IMG/VR virus record: IMGVR_UViG_3300048011_000030
Coordinates: 1 to 58,131 of that record
Reading direction: 5' to 3' (one strand)
DNA length: 58,131 nucleotides
DNA from: a virus
This document shows positions 4,988 to 47,061 of the stretch, piece after piece. The position numbers were made by a program, and so were the translations under genes. Positions within the stretch are counted from its first letter, which is position 1. The number at the start of each line of letters is the position of its first letter. The notes under the pieces were generated by a model, which searched no databases, had not been told where the DNA came from, and saw only the letters and a list, made by a program, of their open reading frames with translations.

Positions 4988-5041
4988 ATGGCTATTCAAA
5001 ATAACATTGCAGAATGCAACAGCCGTTTAACAATTCTCTAA
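4988..5041 (+). CDS. Possible 17-aa micro-gene
   Basis: A 17-codon frame preceded by a good ribosome binding site (AAAGGAG, 10 bases upstream) in the gap after the DUF6447-like gene. Its stop lies inside the phage promoter at 5033. The translation (MAIQNNIAECNSRLTIL) has no recognisable motif. It may be a genuine micro-protein, a translated leader or a chance frame. Confidence 0.3.
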   Translation: MAIQNNIAECNSRLTIL

Positions 5042-5055
5042 GTTCCTTATAGGGG
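5033..5055 (+). promoter_or_regulatory. Putative phage RNA polymerase promoter upstream of nrdJ
   Basis: Contains ATTCTCTAAGTTCCTTATAG followed by GGG, one of five copies of a motif with an invariant TAAGTTCCTTATAG core. The end of the motif resembles the T7 promoter initiation region (CTATAGGG), so G5052 is the predicted first transcribed base. It drives the ribonucleotide reductase and probably the tail genes downstream. The use by the T7-like polymerase encoded at 26845-29139 is inferred. Confidence 0.75.
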
Positions 5056-26582: not shown

Positions 26583-26864
26583 TTATTTAAGCATACCTTT
26601 CTTTGCAAGGAGCTCTCGGTACTCCTTCATTTGGTCTTGCTTACGCTGTCGTGCTTCTTTATCATTGATCACACCACCCTCTAGATCTTCTGCAATACCA
26701 ATGTCCATGACACGTGGCATAAGATCCTTTGTATAAGCCAGCTCTAAATCTAAAGATGTCTTTGTTAGTGGGTTAGTGTTCCAATCAGAGATGAACTCAT
26801 CGTCATCTACTTGAACACCTCGTAGTGCTAAATGATTATATGATTTACGCGAAGAAGTAGTCAC
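26583..26864 (-). CDS. Small hypothetical protein after the RNA polymerase (93 aa)
   Basis: The last gene of the leftward operon. The GTG at 26864 is chosen because an AAGGAG site, lying inside the end of the polymerase gene, stands 10 bases upstream; a TTG at 26873 is possible but too close to it. The gene overlaps the polymerase by 20 bases. The product is charged and ends in a Lys/Arg/Gln-rich helix (KEARQRKQDQMKEYRELL). No family is recognised. Coupling to the polymerase suggests a partner or regulator, but this is only positional. Confidence 0.65.
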   Translation of the reverse strand: MTTSSRKSYNHLALRGVQVDDDEFISDWNTNPLTKTSLDLELAYTKDLMPRVMDIGIAEDLEGGVINDKEARQRKQDQMKEYRELLAKKGMLK

Positions 26865-29139
26865 TGTTTTCAATCTCCTTTATATCTAAGCTGCCCAATG
26901 TAGGTTGTTCCACATCATCTTCAGCATCTGTAATGAAGTTACGTATAACCTCAAAGTAATTATCGTAGTCGTACATGCGTATGAATACTTGTTTGGTTAG
27001 GTCGAGTAGTTTATCTACATCACAGGCATGAGTACTGAAGCTATCATGCACAGCTGCAAAGGAACCATCCCACTCAGAGATAACCAAAGCCATATGACTA
27101 GCATCCATAGAGTGTATGTAGTTAGGTGACATACCACAGATGAAACCTCTCCTGTCTGGCATACGTGTAGGTACAAGGGCTACGTGTGTAACCTGACCTG
27201 TCTTATTTCCATAGCCTTTGATGCGTCCCCTAGCTTTTCTATCTTGCATAATCCATTTCTCATAGATCACATGGAACCCTGATGGTGTACTCCATTCAAC
27301 CTTATCCTTACCCTTACCATGCTTTAGACTTGTGGTGAACTGTTTAAGTTTAACCACAACATCGTTAAGCTCATAGAGATCTTCATCAGTCTTGAAGTTC
27401 TTCTTCATTAATGTATCACGTATCTTAGACAGGCTACGATATTCAGTGTTGGCTTCGTATCCATCTGAGTCTACCTTTATGTGTGTACCTAATTGATACA
27501 TAGCTAGGTTCTGTAGGTAACTCATAGTAGATAGTGGGCCTGGACATACCTTATCAATTGCTTTGATCAGTAGTTTAGATAGCTTAGTACAGTCGTCCTG
27601 TGTGATATCATACTCTGTGTGGTAGTCCTCTGACTTACAATCGAAGAACATGTTCTCAGCGATCTTCTTAGAGCCTGCTGAGTATGCCCTAGTCATGGAG
27701 CCACGCTTAGATATACCCTTACGTATACTCTTCATAGGCATACTAGACAGTATCCCATTAAGTCTATCATCTTTACACAGATTAATCATTTCTTTAGCTG
27801 TTTGCACATAGAAGTCTTTCTGTATCTCTGAGGGTATTAGACCAACCAACTCACCAGTTTGTTCGTCCTTAGAGATTGCTCCTAGGTGTTGCCAACCATT
27901 GTTACTCCCATCAATAGGGATAGGTAGGCTAGTCATGTGGATACGATTGTCTCTGTAAGCACAATCAAATTCATACCACTCAACACAAGCAGCAAGGAAG
28001 GATACTTTCTTCTCAGCTTGACCAGAGAACTGTGAGTTCTTACCAGCCTCTATGATCTCATCCATGTACTCATTGGTCCAGATGATACGATCTTCTAGGG
28101 TCATCTTGTCAACAGAGATGTTGTCTAACCCTTCACTCTCAAGGTGTTCTTTGTAATCAGATGTACACCAATCAGGTATCTCATCGATGTTGTAGGACAT
28201 GTTGAAGACAGACGCTGTGTGTATAGCTAACCACTGTAACCCACTTTCAGTCATGGGCTTTGAGTGTTGGAACTTAAACAAGCCCCTAGCTAGATCAGAT
28301 CCTTGGAAGTTCATAAAGCTCTCACAGTAGTAGAACCTACCACGATAGTCTACATCCAGGTACTGATAGAAAGCATCTAGCTCTGATAGCTTACGTGCCT
28401 TCTCTGATATGAATGCCCACTCAACCATCTTACTCCTACGCTTGAGTTCTTTAGCATCATTGTCCTTGATAGGATCAGTAGATAGGAACAACTCTTTGTT
28501 CTCAATCATTGCATTGTAGACTGGTTTGTTTATCTTCCAAGCAGTCTGCTGAAGTTTGTTAAGGGCTTGTACCCAAGGTGCATAGGGGTCTATTGGATCA
28601 CCCTCCACCCTACCTTTGATCACTGGCCTGTGTACTCCATTGATCTGTTGTATCATACCAGATATATCTTTCGGTCGTATGATACTGGTAGAGGCTAAGG
28701 GGAAACTCCCACCTCTCTCAGGTATCACACCTAACTCATACCATCTATGAGATGCAGACACCACATGGCAGCTGTTACGGGTCTTAGCATAGGACAAGTC
28801 GATAAACCCCAGGTTGTATAGGGCTTCTATGAACAGGTCTCCTATGGACACTACAGAGCCCCAGGGAAGGGGCTCTCTATCTAGTTCTTTACCCACACTC
28901 TGACCTATCTTACTAGATGCATTAGTGAGTGTGGTTGTACCAGCTGGGCTTGAGCTGGTATCCTTAGTGAATTGCATTTGAAGTATGGAGATACTCTTAA
29001 CAACGTACCCTTCCATACGTTCATTATAGTTTCCAGACAATCTCATCAAGAGCCCAGCAAGGTGGGGTCTTCGACGTGCGGGACTCACACCATCTACCCT
29101 TTCGACAAGGTAATCAACTATCTCTTGGAGTGCTGACAT
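26845..29139 (-). CDS. T7-like DNA-dependent RNA polymerase (764 aa)
   Basis: Transcribes phage genes from phage-specific promoters. The family motifs are DVDYRGR, motif A IPIDGSNNGWQHL with D410, motif B KRGSMTRAY with K478 and Y486, and motif C VHDSFST with D699, preceded by YIHSMDASHM. At 764 residues it is about 120 shorter than T7 polymerase, mainly in the N-terminal domain that binds promoters and T7 lysozyme. The start has AGGAGA. It is near the end of the leftward early operon, so it would appear after the replication proteins, and it faces the virion polymerase gene tail to tail. It is the likely user of the five TAAGTTCCTTATAG promoters. Confidence 0.95.
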   Translation of the reverse strand: MSALQEIVDYLVERVDGVSPARRRPHLAGLLMRLSGNYNERMEGYVVKSISILQMQFTKDTSSSPAGTTTLTNASSKIGQSVGKELDREPLPWGSVVSIGDLFIEALYNLGFIDLSYAKTRNSCHVVSASHRWYELGVIPERGGSFPLASTSIIRPKDISGMIQQINGVHRPVIKGRVEGDPIDPYAPWVQALNKLQQTAWKINKPVYNAMIENKELFLSTDPIKDNDAKELKRRSKMVEWAFISEKARKLSELDAFYQYLDVDYRGRFYYCESFMNFQGSDLARGLFKFQHSKPMTESGLQWLAIHTASVFNMSYNIDEIPDWCTSDYKEHLESEGLDNISVDKMTLEDRIIWTNEYMDEIIEAGKNSQFSGQAEKKVSFLAACVEWYEFDCAYRDNRIHMTSLPIPIDGSNNGWQHLGAISKDEQTGELVGLIPSEIQKDFYVQTAKEMINLCKDDRLNGILSSMPMKSIRKGISKRGSMTRAYSAGSKKIAENMFFDCKSEDYHTEYDITQDDCTKLSKLLIKAIDKVCPGPLSTMSYLQNLAMYQLGTHIKVDSDGYEANTEYRSLSKIRDTLMKKNFKTDEDLYELNDVVVKLKQFTTSLKHGKGKDKVEWSTPSGFHVIYEKWIMQDRKARGRIKGYGNKTGQVTHVALVPTRMPDRRGFICGMSPNYIHSMDASHMALVISEWDGSFAAVHDSFSTHACDVDKLLDLTKQVFIRMYDYDNYFEVIRNFITDAEDDVEQPTLGSLDIKEIENSDYFFA

Positions 29140-36051: not shown

Positions 36052-36074
36052 TTTCTTTAAGTTCCTTATAGAGA
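36052..36074 (+). promoter_or_regulatory. Putative phage promoter for the small terminase gene
   Basis: Contains TTTCTTTAAGTTCCTTATAG followed by AGA, with the invariant TAAGTTCCTTATAG core shared by four other sites. G36071 is the predicted start of RNA. It points away from the surrounding leftward genes and toward the single + strand gene at 36146. A 7-bp hairpin (36074-36091) begins 4 bases into the predicted transcript. Confidence 0.75.
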
Positions 36075-36095
36075 AGAGAGTTGTCTCTCTTTTAA

Positions 36096-36118
36096 AATCC
36101 GACCCCCGTGGTCGGATT
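36096..36118. repeat. Repeat element A (conserved hairpin)
   Basis: AATCCGACC (36096-36104) pairs with GGTCGGATT (36110-36118) around CCCGT. It is one of four copies of an element that reads, on the - strand, as TATGAATCCG, a CC-ACA-GG-like core, CGGATT and an A/G-rich tail TTTAAAAAGAGAGA. Here it is 54 bases upstream of the DUF3310 gene and in the leader of the terminase gene on the other strand. Confidence 0.8.
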
Positions 36119-36568: not shown

Positions 36569-36627
36569 GTGCGCTTTGTCGGTTATCTAAAAAAACAAGT
36601 AAGTGCGCTTTGTCGGTTATCTAAAAA
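36569..36627. repeat. Tandem 25-bp repeat after the small terminase gene
   Basis: GTGCGCTTTGTCGG followed by TTATCTAAAAA occurs exactly twice, at 36569-36593 and 36603-36627, a 34-bp period with a 9-bp spacer. A shortened relative (GCTTTGTCGG) is at 39369-39378, at the edge of the structured region. Possible protein-binding or priming sites; no coding role is visible. Confidence 0.8.
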
Positions 36628-36631
36628 TTAT

Positions 36632-39032: not shown

Positions 39033-39245
39033 TTAGTTGAAGCCACGTAGTTTGATTACGTTGCGGATGCGATCTACAGTTGATGCTGAAAGTTTAGAAC
39101 GAGATACAAACCGACCTGTTTCAACATCCCGTGCTACAGATAAATATCCTTGGTGGCCGGAGAATGAACCTACTGGTTTACCATAGCGATTTGTTACACG
39201 ACGAAATTGCAGGTTTTGGCGACCGATTGGGTTTACTGTTGTCAT
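39033..39245 (-). CDS. Basic small protein (70 aa)
   Basis: Arg-rich, with a likely nucleic-acid-binding character: RQNLQFRRVTNRYGK near the start and SASTVDRIRNVIKLRG at the end. It is the first gene after the structured noncoding region (39360-39720). No family is recognised. An RNA- or DNA-binding role is a guess from charge. Confidence 0.55.
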   Translation of the reverse strand: MTTVNPIGRQNLQFRRVTNRYGKPVGSFSGHQGYLSVARDVETGRFVSRSKLSASTVDRIRNVIKLRGFN

Positions 39246-39359
39246 AGTGTTAGCCTTTCATGACTAATTTAAGTTAAGATCTTTTTCTAGTAGTTGCAAC
39301 CATAATGTAACCAACTACCCATACTCCAAATAAAATTGATATATTAAAATGCCTCTTGT

Positions 39360-39720
39360 TGGAATTGAGCTTTGTCGGACTCTCCAAAAATCAGAGTGAC
39401 CCCTATGGGTCACGAAGGATTCTGAAGGAATCCTATAGAGATCTAAAAGATCTCTCTGAGGAATCTTGAAAACCTTTAGGTTTTTGAGACTCCGATTAAA
39501 AACAGGATCCCGTAAGGGATTCTATTTAAAAACTATGAACCCTGACCGGAGACCTCAGCGCAGCATTACTACGGGGTCTCAACAGTCAGGGGTACAGGGA
39601 CCTCAACGAGAACTTCAACAAGGAGTTCGTATCGGAGTCACCTGTATTAGTTGTCCCAACTGGAGTTTGAGCTTGAAAGGATTAAAGAACCCATACTCAA
39701 CAGTTGGAACAGACAACACG
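39360..39720. ncRNA. Structured noncoding region with eight consecutive hairpins
   Basis: No supported gene lies in 39246-39819. Hairpins follow one another: 39396-39413 (7 bp, loop CTAT), 39416-39434 (7 bp), 39437-39455 (8 bp), 39469-39484 (6 bp), 39505-39522 (7 bp, GTAA loop), 39540-39591 (7 + 6 bp), 39610-39628 (5 bp) and 39650-39717 (6 + 7 bp). The two large ones each have the same AACA bulge between their helices. This could be a structured RNA, an attenuator or a replication origin. A stretch of GCTTTGTCGG starts the region. The strand and the RNA nature are not established. Confidence 0.55.
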
Positions 39721-39784
39721 GGAGGTGTGTTGTATTAAATTGTATCAGCAGTTTATTGAGATGCTTAGCTCATTACTCTTTTTA

Positions 39785-39807
39785 AATCCGGTCCCTGTGG
39801 CCGGATT
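39785..39807. repeat. Repeat element B (conserved hairpin)
   Basis: AATCCGG pairs with CCGGATT, with a CC-ACA-GG core on the - strand. Followed on the - strand by TTTAAAAAGAG. It lies 13 bases after the SSB stop codon. Second of four copies; it could end or process the SSB transcript, or start the next one. Confidence 0.8.
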
Positions 39808-39819
39808 CATAGAGGATGT

Positions 39820-40317
39820 TTAGAACATTGCTTCTAGGTCTTCTTCTTTAGCTACACCTGTAGAAGATGTAGCAGGAGAAACATCACCAACAACATCAAA
39901 GTCGATGGAGTTAGAACCATTGTATTCTACAAGATCAGTTACTTGAATAGCAGTAAGTGAGCTCATAATACCTTGGCGTCCAGCTTTATCGTATGGGAAC
40001 TGAAACAAGATTACGTTACCACGAGATCCATTGCCTATTGTGGAGGCGTCAATTGGTTGTTTTGTGTTATCAACAACACGAACTTTACCATTGCTTTCAC
40101 CATTAGCTTTGAACTCTTTACGCTTAAGAGACGCTACCCACTTGCCATCTTTTTCTTTCATAGCAATGTGATTAGCAATGAGATTTTTAGCTACATCAGA
40201 ATTATCTGTTGCAATTTGGATCTCATACTGTGAAGTACCGAAAGGTGATTGTGGTGTTACCAGACGAGCCCAATTAAGTTCAATGTCTGAGATTAGATAG
40301 TTACGTGGCTTTTCCAT
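39820..40317 (-). CDS. Single-stranded DNA-binding protein (T7 gp2.5-like, 165 aa)
   Basis: Coats single-stranded DNA during replication and recombination and recruits the polymerase and helicase through its tail. The body is beta-rich OB-fold-like with conserved aromatic and basic positions (NVILFQFPYDKAGRQG). The tail is acidic and ends EEDLEAMF, with the terminal Phe typical of gp2.5. AAAGGAAAA precedes the ATG. The gene is bracketed by repeat elements C (upstream) and B (downstream), suggesting separate transcript control. Confidence 0.82.
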   Translation of the reverse strand: MEKPRNYLISDIELNWARLVTPQSPFGTSQYEIQIATDNSDVAKNLIANHIAMKEKDGKWVASLKRKEFKANGESNGKVRVVDNTKQPIDASTIGNGSRGNVILFQFPYDKAGRQGIMSSLTAIQVTDLVEYNGSNSIDFDVVGDVSPATSSTGVAKEEDLEAMF

Positions 40318-40361
40318 AGGTTTTCCTTTACATGGATTGTGAGAGGATATCTCTCTTTTTA

Positions 40362-40385
40362 AATCGATCCCCCTGTGGGTCGATT
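40362..40385. repeat. Repeat element C (conserved hairpin)
   Basis: AATCGA pairs with TCGATT, with a CCC-ACA-GGG core on the - strand, followed on that strand by TTTAAAAAGAGAGA. It lies 45 bases upstream of the SSB start. Third of four copies. Confidence 0.8.
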
Positions 40386-41737: not shown

Positions 41738-41792
41738 GGTATATCCTTTCAAGATATATTCAGTACAGGGACAACCCCTATGTTTCTTCTTA

Positions 41793-41815
41793 GATCTGGC
41801 CCCTGTGGACAGATC
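41793..41815. repeat. Repeat element D (conserved hairpin)
   Basis: GATCTG pairs with CAGATC, with a CC-ACA-GG core on the - strand and an A/G-rich tail (TAAGAAGAAAC). It lies 56 bases upstream of the first leftward gene. Fourth and most diverged copy. Confidence 0.7.
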
Positions 41816-41837
41816 ACATACTATCGGAACCAATCAG

Positions 41838-42348
41838 GTAGAGTATCGATAGATCTATAAGAACCCAAGAGATACACATAGCTTGGTCTTATCTGAGAGT
41901 ATGCTGAGAGATACTGAGAGAGTATTGAGAGATGCTGAGAGATCTATAAGAGACTGAGAGATCTTATAGTATAGGTATATATATAGTAACCTAAGGGAGG
42001 GACTGGATAGCTTCTCCCTATAAGGAACTTAGAGAATGTTACACCATCCCCCCACAGTCTCTCACAGAATCCCACACAATCCCACAGTCCCGCTAGATCC
42101 TATGCCACAAGAGACTCTCAGAGAGCCTCACAGAACCTATAGAGGGCTCAGAGTACTCACAGTACCTAAGAGATAGACACCTACCTGAGAGAGCCTCTGA
42201 GAGATCTAGGGGGGTACTAAAAAACTATGAGGGTACCTGATAAAAAAAGTACTTATTAGGCTCTCTTTCTCAAAGACCCTCTATAAACCTCACAGGGGTA
42301 CCTCAATCTCTCACAGAACCCCCACATAATCTAAAAATAATATAGATA
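41838..42348. other. Divergent intergenic region with GAGA-type repeats, possible origin
   Basis: No supported gene lies between 41738 and 42394. The left part (41893-41971) has about seven imperfect copies of CTGAGAGAT or TGAGAGAK. An AT-rich run (41965-41988, TATATATATAG) follows, then short inverted repeats such as GAGTACTC and AGTACCT. CTCACAGAA occurs three times (near 42060, 42128 and 42310). Divergent promoters flank it at 42013 and 42349. This is a candidate replication origin and transcription control region; this is inference only. Confidence 0.5.
42013..42037 (-). promoter_or_regulatory. Putative leftward phage promoter
   Basis: On the - strand it reads ATTCTCTAAGTTCCTTATAG then GGAGA, so its end, TATAGGGAGA, is identical to the T7 promoter start region. 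G42018 is the predicted first base. The only one of five copies that points left. It would allow the T7-like polymerase to sustain early gene transcription, including its own gene. The predicted RNA begins with GGGAG, which can pair with CTCCC 14 bases later. Confidence 0.8.
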
Positions 42349-42371
42349 TATTTCTAAGTTCCTTATAGGGA
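42349..42371 (+). promoter_or_regulatory. Putative rightward phage promoter for packaging genes
   Basis: Contains TTTCTAAGTTCCTTATAG followed by GGA. Predicted first base G42368. It stands 27 bases before the large terminase ATG and starts the rightward late block. Confidence 0.78.
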
Positions 42372-42394
42372 CAATGTGACATAGAGGATACACC

Positions 42395-44047
42395 ATGAAT
42401 AACAAAGAGGTTATGACTCTTCTTAAAGAAAAGGAGAAGAGGGTTAAGCTAAAGGAGTATGAGAATAACTTCACTTCTTTTGCTGAAGAACAAATACAGA
42501 TTATAACTAAGGATACATCCAAAGGTTTCATACCCTTTAAGTTCAATGAGTGTCAGCAACGTATAACAGATGCCCTCACAGAACAACAAAAGAAGACTGG
42601 TATGGTTAGGGCTATTATACTTAAGGCTAGACAACAAGGTATTAGTACGTACTGTGCTGGTAGGGTCTTTTGGAAATCATACTTCTCACCCCATTCCAGA
42701 TCAGTAGTTATGGCTCATGACTCTGCTACATCAGATGCATTGTTTAGCATGTCTAAGAACTTGATTAGGAATATGCAAGGAGACTTAGTACCTAAGGAGA
42801 TTACATCTAATGCTAAAGAGATTAAGATACAGTCTCCTGCTTACAATGATAAAGATGCTATTGGATCTTATCGTCTCTATACAGCGGGTTCTCCGGAGGC
42901 TGGTCGTGGTACTACACCAACAATTGCTCACCTATCAGAAGTAGCCTTCTGGACCCATGATGAGAAGATCTTGGCTGGTTTGTTCCAAGGTATCTCCCAA
43001 GCACCAGGCACTGAGGTTATCTTAGAGTCTACAGCTAATGGTGCTCAAGGGGAGTTCTACAGGCTCTGGAAGGGTGCTGTTGCAGGAGAGAATGAGTATC
43101 TACCTATCTTCCTACCTTGGTTTATAACTCCTGAGTATAGGCGTACAGCCCCTGAGGGTATGGAGTTGTCAATTGAAGAGGAGACCCTCGTAGAAAACTA
43201 TGGGTTAGATAATGATCAACTCTATTGGCGTAGATTAAAAATAGCAGAAGGTGGTAAGTTAAAGTTTCAACAGGAGTACCCTGCTACAGCGGATGAGGCA
43301 TTCATTGTGTCCGGTGCTAATGTCTTTGACATTGATAAACTAAACTCCCTTATCCCTCGCCCAGAACAAAAGCGTAGTGATTGGGATCCATCCAGTAAGA
43401 TGTTTGATGATAATAGGGAAGGTAACTTGTCTATCTATGGTTATCCTAAGTGGGAGGAGCCTTATGTAATTGGGGCTGATGTCTCTTTAGGGGTAGGTCA
43501 AGACTACAGTGCTGCTGTCGTTATGAATAATAAATATGAAATTGTAGCTGTATATCGTAACAATCGTATTGATCCTAGTATGTGGGGTGAGTTGTTATTC
43601 TACTTAGGTAGATATTATAACAATGCTTTCTTAGCAGTTGAGTCTAACTCTATGGGTATTGCCACACTGCAGAAGCTAGAACAGATGGGTTATCTCAATC
43701 TGTACAAACAAACAAAGATGGCTAATGTGTCTAATGAGGAAGGTTTACGTCTAGGTTTCAGAACAACATCTGCATCTAAACCTGTAATCATTGGGAACCT
43801 AAAGAATCTAATAGACAATGAGGATATTATGATACCCTCACCTATTGTCATTAGAGAACTCAAGGACTACATCTCTACAGCTAGTGGTAAGACAGAAGCA
43901 GCCCCTGGTTGCTATGATGATACTGTTATCTCTCTTGCGATATGCGCTGAAGTTCTGCGTACACATTGGGATAAGTTGAACACGAGGAATGTGTCATGGA
44001 AAGAAAGGATCTCGGACTGGGAAGAGGACAATACCCAGTGGATTTAG
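42395..44047 (+). CDS. terL: Terminase large subunit (550 aa)
   Basis: The packaging motor and nuclease. The ATPase domain has a Walker-A-like KARQQGIST (residues 77-85), and HLSEVAFW as a Walker B-type segment. The C-terminal nuclease domain has acidic residues in IGADVSLGVGQD, LAVESNSMG and YDDTVISLA. A promoter and the ribosome binding site GAGGA precede it. The small subunit is not adjacent but at 36146. The 3' end overlaps the next small gene by 52 bases. Confidence 0.92.
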   Translation: MNNKEVMTLLKEKEKRVKLKEYENNFTSFAEEQIQIITKDTSKGFIPFKFNECQQRITDALTEQQKKTGMVRAIILKARQQGISTYCAGRVFWKSYFSPHSRSVVMAHDSATSDALFSMSKNLIRNMQGDLVPKEITSNAKEIKIQSPAYNDKDAIGSYRLYTAGSPEAGRGTTPTIAHLSEVAFWTHDEKILAGLFQGISQAPGTEVILESTANGAQGEFYRLWKGAVAGENEYLPIFLPWFITPEYRRTAPEGMELSIEEETLVENYGLDNDQLYWRRLKIAEGGKLKFQQEYPATADEAFIVSGANVFDIDKLNSLIPRPEQKRSDWDPSSKMFDDNREGNLSIYGYPKWEEPYVIGADVSLGVGQDYSAAVVMNNKYEIVAVYRNNRIDPSMWGELLFYLGRYYNNAFLAVESNSMGIATLQKLEQMGYLNLYKQTKMANVSNEEGLRLGFRTTSASKPVIIGNLKNLIDNEDIMIPSPIVIRELKDYISTASGKTEAAPGCYDDTVISLAICAEVLRTHWDKLNTRNVSWKERISDWEEDNTQWI

Positions 44048-44164: not shown

Positions 44165-44187
44165 ATTCTCTAAGTTCCTTATAGAGA
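44165..44187 (+). promoter_or_regulatory. Putative phage promoter for the head gene block
   Basis: Contains ATTCTCTAAGTTCCTTATAG followed by AGA. Predicted first base G44184. A short hairpin, GAAT pairing with ATTC, starts 2 bases in. It precedes the 88-aa gene, the portal and the head genes. Confidence 0.78.
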
Positions 44188-44758: not shown

Positions 44759-44905
44759 ATGCGATTTAATGAAACACAAGTTGAACCAAAGAAAGAGCCT
44801 AAACCTAAAAAAGAAAAGGTTGTTATCAAGGCTGGTAGTAAGGATTATGACTACGCTGAGTTAGCTAAGACTAAGAAGATTCTTACAGGAAGGGGTTCAT
44901 TCTAA
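44759..44905 (+). CDS. Lys-rich small protein before the portal (48 aa)
   Basis: Begins MRFNETQVEPKKEPKPKKEK and ends KILTGRGSF. Lys/Pro-rich N-terminal half suggests a disordered, nucleic-acid-binding or head-associated protein. GGAGGGAG precedes the ATG. The stop overlaps the portal ATG by one base (TAATG), which supports that it is real. Confidence 0.65.
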   Translation: MRFNETQVEPKKEPKPKKEKVVIKAGSKDYDYAELAKTKKILTGRGSF

Positions 44906-47061
44906 TGGCTGGTAATAAGTATAAAGAAAAGGTGTCTGATGATAGTCTAATCAATTTGATTGAGACTGGTATTCAGAACTCTACAGGGGAATGGTTAAAC
45001 TCCTCTGATATGACACGGGAACGTCAACGATCTACGTATGAATTTGCAGGTATTGCTGCAGATCACTTAGCACCACAAGGTGTATCTAGTATTGTTGACA
45101 CATCTACTACAGAAACAGTAGAAGCATACACTTCAATCTTGTCTGATTTGTTCTTAAACAATGGTAAATTGGCTAGATTCGTACCATATGACAACTCCCC
45201 AGGCTCTTTTAAGAGTGCTAGGGATGCCTCTATGATTACTAATTATGCTATCTTTAAGCAGAATAATGGGTGGGAACTTATCCAAACCTGGATAAAAAGT
45301 GCCCTATTGTGGAAGAATGGTATCATTCGGTGGGACTATGTAGAGGGTTACGACTACGAGTTTGAAGAATACGAGAAAATCTCTCAAGGCCAGTTGGATA
45401 TCCTCCTTGCTGAAGAAGGAGTTGAGATCATTGGTAACCTAAATTATGAAAATGAATTAGGTGAGTTGAACATGGAGACCGGACAGCAAGATGCTGAGTT
45501 GGTTTATGTTGATGTGCGTATTCGTCGTAAGAATGATAACTCTCGTGTTAAGATAGAAAACATCCCACCAGAATCTTTTAGGATCTCTCGTGATGCTAAG
45601 TCTATTGATGATGCTAGTTTCGTAGGTATCCAGACAATCTTAACTCGCTCAGAGATCCGTAAGATGTGGCCTGATGTTGCAGACAACATTGGTGAAGATG
45701 AATGGGATGAGCTTGGAGATGATACGACTTGGGATGGCAATGGTAGCTATGCAGAGGATATTGCAGCTCGTAAGCTAGTGACAGGTCAGAGTTACCTACA
45801 AGGTCGTATGGCTGATGACATTACAGCATTAGAAGCCAATCGGGAAGTTACCATAACAGAGTGTTGGATTAACGTTGACCGTGATGGTGATGGGGTTGCT
45901 GAACTTAAGCACTTCATTATTGCAGGTGATACAGTCTTGTACGAAAAAGACATAGATATGATTCCAATCGCTTGTCTATCACCTATAGATATCCCATATG
46001 AGTTTTATGGTTTATCTATTGCTGACTTTACACGTTCGTCTACACTAGCATCTACTGCAATCCTTCGTGGGTTTGTTGAGAATACATATCTTACAAACTA
46101 TTCACCAAAGCTTGCTGATCCAAACGTTGTTGATTTCTCTGCTCTCCAAAACATGAGACCAAAACAAATCATTCCAACCAATGGTAATCCTAATGGTGCT
46201 GTGTCATCACTACCACCAGAGGCAATTAGCTCAGGCACTGTACCACTACTCTCACACTTACAGACAATTAAAGAACAAGCAACTGGTATGTCAAAGGCTG
46301 CTCAAGGTCTTAATGATTCCTTGTACGTGTCTGGTAATAGTGAATCAAAGGTGGCTGCAGTTCAATCTGCATCTCAGAAACGTATCCAACACATTGCCCG
46401 TAGGTTTGCAGAGACAGGTATGAAGCGGCTATGTACAGGTGTGTATAAGACAATGCGGAAATGCTTGAAGACTCACTCCAAGTTTAGTTACCAAGGTGTG
46501 TTTGCTGAAATAGATATTATGTCCCTTCCATCCCGTATGGATGTGGAGGTGTTCCTGGATATCGGTGAGAACTCAAATTCAAACATGATTAAAAAGTTTG
46601 AGATGGTTGGTAGTCAAATACTGCCAGCACTGAACAGCCAGGGTCAGGGTGTTGTTATTCGTCCAGAAGCTCCTGCTATCTTAGCTACAAAACTTATAGA
46701 GTCTATGGGTATTGATAGTAATGATTACTTGGAAGACTATACAACGGATGAGTTTAAACAGAAAGCTATGGAAACTGTTAAACAACAAACTGAAAAAGCA
46801 CAGAAGGATGGTGCTATTGCACAACGTAAGATGGAAGCTGATGCATCACTCGCTGAGGCCAATGTTACATTTACCAACGCACAATCTAAGAACACTGTGG
46901 ATGACAACACTAAACAGTTGGCTATCTCTATTGATAAGCATTTCCAAGAGTGGGCAGAAATTGATATCAAGGCTCGTAAAGAAGGTATTGAACCTCCAAT
47001 GCGTCCTGATTTTAATCAGATAACAACTCTTGCAAGGGCTATGATTGCAGGAGAAGCATAA
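44905..47061 (+). CDS. Portal protein (718 aa)
   Basis: Forms the twelve-subunit channel at one capsid corner for DNA packaging and release. Sequence, length and place after the terminase fit podovirus portals of about 700 residues. Characteristic elements are an N-terminal helical wing region, a central KLARFVPYDNSPGSF segment with tryptophan-rich stretches (LIQTWIKSALLWKNGIIRWD), and a long C-terminal helical barrel rich in Glu, Gln and Lys. Followed by small membrane proteins, then scaffold and capsid. Confidence 0.8.
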   Translation: MAGNKYKEKVSDDSLINLIETGIQNSTGEWLNSSDMTRERQRSTYEFAGIAADHLAPQGVSSIVDTSTTETVEAYTSILSDLFLNNGKLARFVPYDNSPGSFKSARDASMITNYAIFKQNNGWELIQTWIKSALLWKNGIIRWDYVEGYDYEFEEYEKISQGQLDILLAEEGVEIIGNLNYENELGELNMETGQQDAELVYVDVRIRRKNDNSRVKIENIPPESFRISRDAKSIDDASFVGIQTILTRSEIRKMWPDVADNIGEDEWDELGDDTTWDGNGSYAEDIAARKLVTGQSYLQGRMADDITALEANREVTITECWINVDRDGDGVAELKHFIIAGDTVLYEKDIDMIPIACLSPIDIPYEFYGLSIADFTRSSTLASTAILRGFVENTYLTNYSPKLADPNVVDFSALQNMRPKQIIPTNGNPNGAVSSLPPEAISSGTVPLLSHLQTIKEQATGMSKAAQGLNDSLYVSGNSESKVAAVQSASQKRIQHIARRFAETGMKRLCTGVYKTMRKCLKTHSKFSYQGVFAEIDIMSLPSRMDVEVFLDIGENSNSNMIKKFEMVGSQILPALNSQGQGVVIRPEAPAILATKLIESMGIDSNDYLEDYTTDEFKQKAMETVKQQTEKAQKDGAIAQRKMEADASLAEANVTFTNAQSKNTVDDNTKQLAISIDKHFQEWAEIDIKARKEGIEPPMRPDFNQITTLARAMIAGEA

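Follow-up and report, generated by a model that had tools for sequence, protein, structure and literature searches.

The gap behind the gene for the single-stranded DNA-binding protein (ssb) of a marine phage holds a conserved array of RNA structures, and among them is a 27-nt H-type pseudoknot of a family in which both stems covary strongly. The structure can be read from the base pairs themselves, whereas the function we infer from sequence. There is, in our judgment, about an even chance that the gap is transcribed as a structured module between cistrons, placed at the end of the ssb cistron and acting in cis on a leftward polycistronic mRNA.

The window, as we use the term here, is the whole stretch of DNA analyzed, 58,131 bases of the IMG/VR virus record IMGVR_UViG_3300048011_000030. 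The genes and sites that set the context of the gap are these:

26845-29139, minus strand: T7-like RNA polymerase
39033-39245, minus strand: 70-aa ORF, the downstream neighbor of the gap
39820-40317, minus strand: ssb, encoding a gp2.5-like single-stranded DNA-binding protein (phrog_112, E 1.6e-15), upstream of the gap in transcription
42015-42032, minus strand: CTAAGTTCCTTATAGGGA, a putative promoter of the phage RNA polymerase, with all leftward genes downstream of it
42395-44047, plus strand: terminase
44905-47061, plus strand: portal
5038-5055, 36057-36074, 42354-42371 and 44170-44187, all plus strand: CTAAGTTCCTTATAGRGA sites

The gap itself (39246-39819) is bounded by the 70-aa ORF and ssb, both on the minus strand. 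Between 42 and 26.8 kb most genes point leftward. Near-identical CTAAGTTCCTTATAGRGA sites occur five times in the window (0.10 expected), and their sequence suggests that they are probably promoters of the phage's own single-subunit RNA polymerase. Because the genes run leftward and the only minus-strand copy of the promoter lies at 42015-42032, the gap is to be read on the minus strand, and the array belongs to the leftward transcription unit between ssb and the next gene. At the protein level the closest match among named phages is Roseobacter phage CRP-7, whose RNA polymerase is 35.9% identical; a DNA-level search for close relatives among named phages returned none.

An earlier note on this DNA described a dense hairpin array in the gap, and the array is indeed real and far above chance. 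On either strand the gap folds better than all of 100 dinucleotide shuffles (z of -7.7 on the plus strand and -9.5 on the minus strand). It contains five perfect Watson-Crick hairpins with stems of at least 6 and loops of 3-8, a number reached by 1 of 500 shuffles (mean 0.91); when the window is cut into overlapping tiles of 574 nt, only one other place (35589) reaches five. With composite and imperfect stems included, the gap holds about ten hairpins plus one pseudoknot, the latter (39746-39772) having escaped the earlier note. On the minus strand the elements follow a modular order, from a first hairpin through the pseudoknot and a four-stem domain of ~200 nt, which we call domain C, to five simple hairpins:

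39776-39815, minus strand: hairpin with a CCACAGGGA loop and a TTTAAAAAGAG tail, further copies of which occur in the window
39746-39772, minus strand: H-type pseudoknot TGAG-CT-AAGCA-T-CTCA-ATAAAC-TGCTG, stem 1 with 4/4 and stem 2 with 4/5 pairs
39528-39736, minus strand: domain C, four stems c1-c4
39713-39733, minus strand: c1, a 7-bp hairpin whose stem is invariant and whose loop changes by substitution and indel
39652-39711, minus strand: c2, a long composite stem
39593-39646, minus strand: c3, a composite stem with one G-C to A-U double change
39540-39591, minus strand: c4, a composite stem in which three pairs show double changes
39500-39527, minus strand: s1, terminator-like, GAATCCC-TTAC-GGGATCC-TGTTTTT
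39460-39493, minus strand: s2, a simple hairpin
39437-39455, minus strand: s3, a simple hairpin
39416-39434, minus strand: s4, a simple hairpin; varying columns 0/14 in the stem and 4/5 in the loop
39396-39413, minus strand: s5, terminator-like; varying columns 0/14 in the stem and 2/4 in the loop
39274-39351, minus strand: hydrophobic short reading frame without a recognized start codon

Close relatives keep this order, including the short frame at its end. The description of the gap as gene-free thus needs amending, since that frame is kept in relatives. A plus-strand ORF at 39466-39738 was rejected as a gene: in relative L046 the frame runs into TAA 14 codons after the ATG, and L046 and L054 have a 4-nt insertion in common. 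Hairpins with a CCACAGGGG-type loop followed by TTTAAAAAGAG recur at 36087-36118, 39776-39815, 40361-40385 and 41785-41822, which lie in several gaps between genes within the minus-strand unit. Repeats of CCGACAAAG (minus strand) precede genes at 36574-36629 (plus) and about 39372 (plus); CCGACAAAG/ACCGACAA repeats are also present in relatives L011, L079, L085, L107, L110, L123 and L143, and ACCGACAA precedes the next gene in distant relatives as well.

Relatives were collected from IMG/VR with the SSB protein (19 loci), the 70-aa neighbor (37) and an SSB alignment (53), sets that overlap; a DNA pattern gave 39 stretches that overlap the other sets, those without further similarity being chance matches. 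Domain C is nearly invariant across 15 relatives. In an alignment of 16 sequences (15 distinct) with 70 consensus pairs, 99.3% of cells are paired, a figure that falls to about 41% when the structure is slid by one column. Four pairs carry double changes, and the covariation score is reached by none of 500 shuffles; 52 of the 70 pairs never vary, so that the covariation bears on the others. A diverged homologue of c4 in L107 keeps CCCTGAC/GTCAGGG and has GAACT/AGTTC as its inner stem, and L011 has no domain C. An AACA bulge was previously assigned to both large composites (39540-39591 and 39650-39717), which have the 9-mer CTCAACAGT in common. The favored consensus fold shows a different arrangement in which UGUU is mostly paired: it joins GACA in an uninterrupted 11-bp helix of the 39652-39711 stem, and UU alone stays unpaired within the stem at 39540-39591.

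Among the simple hairpins, across 13 aligned sequences, s2, s4 and s5 together vary in 0/40 stem columns versus 8/13 loop columns, and s1 varies in 1/14 stem and 1/4 loop columns. The 10/14 columns that vary in the s3 stem are due to L046 and L054, whose shifted hairpin is misaligned there. The equivalent gaps of several relatives contain arrays as well, with five hairpins in L079 (2/300 simulations reach this count), five in L085 (0/300), four in L107 (1/300) and five in L046 (1/300); the L011 array, with three, does not clearly exceed chance (30/300). Stems are thus conserved and covarying, pairing is kept in relatives, and covariation of the pseudoknot extends over phages that differ widely, all of which bears out the earlier suggestion of a structured RNA. 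The accompanying suggestion of a cascade of attenuators is plausible from sequence: two hairpins, at 39396-39413 and 39507-39520, look terminator-like on the transcribed strand. Their equivalents in L107 are followed by T9 runs. Sites with a G+C stem and a T-run number two in the gap and nine in the 10 kb scanned, versus 5.7 expected.

The pseudoknot belongs to a family with the 27-nt layout N4-CU-NRRYA-W-N4'-nnAAAC-S2'. The window's copy, the sole convincing one found within it, lies behind a hairpin, 47 nt after the ssb stop, and has a terminal A.G mismatch in stem 2; a strict two-stem descriptor run over the window gave zero matches. Relatives bear up to three copies behind ssb with other sequence in between. 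Their stem 1 is variously TGTG/CACA, AGAG/CTCT, AGAC/GTCT, TGTC/GACA, AATC/GATT, CTTC/GAAG and others, and their stem 2 GAGCA/TGCTC, AGGCA/TGCCT, GGACA/TGTCT and others. Many relatives have two pseudoknot copies with roughly 60-250 nt more between them, which points to a deletion between such copies in the window, and the stop-proximal copy seems, on this comparison, to have been lost in this phage.

Three lines of evidence establish the covariation. First, a bait with stem 2 and the loops fixed and stem 1 free was run over IMG/VR. Among the matches listed (L150-L267), stem 1 had 4/4 pairs in 99 of 121, three in 18 and fewer in four, where about 2%, or (6/16)^4, would have a perfect stem 1 by chance. 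Second, the 625 unbaited frame matches in the listed viral loci include 48 with a perfect stem 1, 44 with a perfect stem 2 and 33 with both, versus 3.4 expected if the stems were independent. Third, the covariation score is 0.819 (shuffled mean 0.245) in an alignment of 66 sequences chosen by stem 1 only and 0.450 (shuffled mean 0.123) in one of 79 sequences selected solely on stem 2 and the loops; none of 500 shuffles reaches either value. The same bait approach applied to GTDB contigs gave a full stem 1 in 42 of 117 among the matches listed, so most of those matches look like chance.

Carriers of the pseudoknot include phages of Alphaproteobacteria, Cyanobacteria, Firmicutes and Actinobacteria, and it occurs in weaker form in enterobacterial and crAss-like phages. 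The hosts of named carriers include Roseobacter-type bacteria, Synechococcus, Microcystis, Nostoc, Staphylococcus, Streptococcus, Lactobacillus, Mycobacterium and Paracoccus. Roseobacter phage SIO1 and Celeribacter phage P12053L are cultured phages among the carriers. When 18 chosen named-phage matches were re-read, 15 had 4/4 pairs in stem 1, a count to be read with the fact that taking the best fit per match favors pairing. Stem 1 has 3/4 pairs in phiEcoM-GJ1, Erwinia phage Berlingot and cr7_1, and Vibrio phage D456 reaches 4/4 with an altered layout only. The first 50,000 bases of CRP-7 contain no convincing pseudoknot, a loose descriptor giving two non-canonical matches there.

The position of the pseudoknot bears on its function. 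Among the matches listed, 45 of 97 distinct baited pseudoknots start 5-12 nt past the stop of an ORF on the same strand, versus 2 of 97 when mirrored on the other strand and 239 of 4804 random intergenic positions (5%); the other 52 baited sites among these matches lie outside 5-12 nt of a mechanically called stop. A spacing of 5-9 nt is found for 37/97 baited (among the matches listed) and 12/33 unbaited pseudoknots. The start nearest to a stop among the matches listed, 4 nt, is also the only one closer than 5 nt. Stops 3-12 nt before a pseudoknot are TAA in 43 of 57 cases among the matches listed, versus 346 of 615 in the background. The genes concerned are diverse: among the matches listed, the 68 upstream proteins include 13 Hsp20, three of a minor head protein family and three ribonucleotide reductases, and the 64 downstream proteins include five scaffolding proteins. 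In Firmicute phages the pseudoknot precedes a scaffold or capsid gene. Since many unrelated genes precede it, ssb is not its common partner.

At this spacing the pseudoknot lies at the downstream edge of a ribosome whose A site is occupied by the stop codon, and this leads us to favor an element that marks the end of a cistron and works through the ribosome or mRNA decay. Such a ribosome would barely reach the folded pseudoknot and would not open it, so that the structure would persist and mark the cistron end. Folded, it could limit onward movement of the ribosome, entry of an exonuclease or both. In the gap studied here, domain C and the terminator-like hairpins that follow it may in addition let part of transcription stop, and as a consequence ssb would be expressed more than the genes beyond. 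Against this reading we count that the window's own pseudoknot is not stop-proximal, is a single copy and has the stem-2 mismatch. More broadly, dsDNA phages of several host phyla may use a common 27-nt H-type pseudoknot as a general cistron-end mark, one that abuts the terminating ribosome and decides the fate of ribosome or mRNA there, a proposal whose chances we place just short of even. If true, this would be among the broadest of phage RNA motifs, spanning Proteobacteria, Cyanobacteria, Firmicutes, Actinobacteria and gut crAss-like phages, and would look like an undescribed way in which phages mark the end of a gene's message. It would bear on the open question of how neighboring genes of one long phage transcript come to give differing protein levels.

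Several other explanations need to be weighed against a cistron-end mark. Possible, though we think it unlikely, is an exonuclease-resistant RNA, in which the pseudoknot would stop a 5'-to-3' exonuclease (e.g. RNase J) or a 3'-to-5' one and so stabilize the message on one side. Coremin/xrRNA elements resist Xrn1 in RNA viruses, and the common version of our pseudoknot, GUCCU..GACGUUAAACU, resembles the coremin core GUCCGAAGACGUUAAACUAC (PMC10520033). The likeness extends to a small stem followed by a GUUAAACU spacer (PMC10520033), but coremin has a second hairpin instead of a covarying stem 2. The window reads TGAG-CTAAGCAT-CTCA-ATAAACTGCTG, which differs from the core GUC-YGAD-GAC-GUUAAACUAC with its second hairpin. 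Placement before scaffold or capsid genes in Firmicute phages, where extra message might be helpful, also favors such a block. Nevertheless, coremin needs no stem 2, yet stem 2 covaries here, and a block alone leaves the 5-12-nt spacing to the stop codon unexplained. Phages of E. coli and Erwinia, hosts that are not known to have RNase J, carry the pseudoknot too, although with 3/4 stem-1 pairs.

We regard as rather doubtful a trans-acting noncoding RNA, such as an anti-host or packaging RNA, processed from the gap. The extreme sequence conservation of domain C is consistent with it, as is the ORF-poor stretch of about 650-850 nt that follows ssb in relatives L120-L136. No separate promoter was found, however, the sole minus-strand phage promoter being that at 42015-42032, and L011 does without domain C. 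In L123, L126, L131, L134 and L136 the ORF-poor sequence is apparently structured and opens with a pseudoknot about 5 nt after the stop.

Autoregulation by the phage SSB, through binding to pseudoknots behind its own gene and repression of downstream or its own synthesis, would be an analogy to T4 and appears improbable. Pseudoknots do lie directly behind ssb in many relatives and before it in L122, L130, L134 and L136, and T4 gp32 uses a ~28-nt leader pseudoknot with UUAAA elements (PMC535899). The T4/RB69 gene 32 operator is similar in that it, too, is a short H-type pseudoknot with UUAAA elements on a phage mRNA, next to an SSB gene (PMC535899). But the T4 pseudoknot is upstream of the SSB start codon and specific to that gene, whereas the window's follows the ssb stop by 47 nt and the present family, with its conserved CU / AAAC core, follows the stop codons of many genes, Hsp20, minor head and ribonucleotide reductase genes among them.

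A replication origin or other DNA-level signal, with hairpins extruded in single-stranded DNA, was the remaining suggestion of the earlier note and is highly improbable: palindromes are present and ssb is adjacent, but pseudoknot position follows the coding strand (45/97 vs 2/97 among the matches listed), the transcribed strand has the better fold z, and cumulative GC skew, which in the window follows gene direction, turns near 27 kb and 42-43 kb and not at 39.2-39.8 kb. A repeat-rich noncoding region at 41850-42390, full of GAGAGATCT-type motifs and lying between divergent promoters, is a better origin candidate than the hairpin gap.

The array corresponds to no known family in the searches made. 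At the gathering cut-off, Rfam 15 gave no match in the window, tRNAs only in 10 relatives and nothing in nine more; E-value scans of the gap and of related or pseudoknot-bearing stretches gave sub-cut-off matches or none, and the ORF-poor stretches behind ssb in the five relatives named above had no Rfam match. Weak matches in the gap to IS009, mir-769 and IS605-orfB-II fall far below cut-offs and were rejected. STAXI (RF01728) is similar in that its pseudoknots are repeated and lie close to genes for SSB and other DNA-handling proteins (PMC2864571); it is listed for Enterobacteriales, often has UUCG loops and has a 153-position model. Its tandem arrangement of at least two pseudoknots contrasts with the one in the window, and its model matched none of seven records, the window included, at E<=10. 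In the open-access literature searched, mostly at abstract level, we found neither a description of this pseudoknot nor a phage-wide RNA punctuation element.

Pseudoknots that stimulate readthrough or frameshifting likewise lie a few nucleotides downstream of the decoding site. Here, unlike in those cases, most stops are TAA, and the matches listed give no sign of an extended protein. Stop-codon readthrough is not supported as the function, the median in-frame extension of 13 codons being near the 8 of the background.

Type III antitoxins (ToxI) offer a last comparison, through H-type pseudoknots in tandem, as also seen in L016. The ToxI layout is one of tandem repeats of H-type pseudoknots next to a ToxN-like gene, unlike the single copy in the window and unlike L016, where the stems differ from copy to copy. 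L016 (2779-3020) has a tandem array of about seven pseudoknots of 31-38 nt, and L015 (3630-3770) one of about four of the same size, with stems again differing between copies; these arrays resemble the repeat antitoxin or sponge type of RNA. Finally, by eye, the pseudoknot sequence is flanked by CRISPR-like repeats in L285 (about 4608) and L308 (about 3443), both among the GTDB matches, and these copies, which have a full stem 1, look like CRISPR spacers taken from phages.
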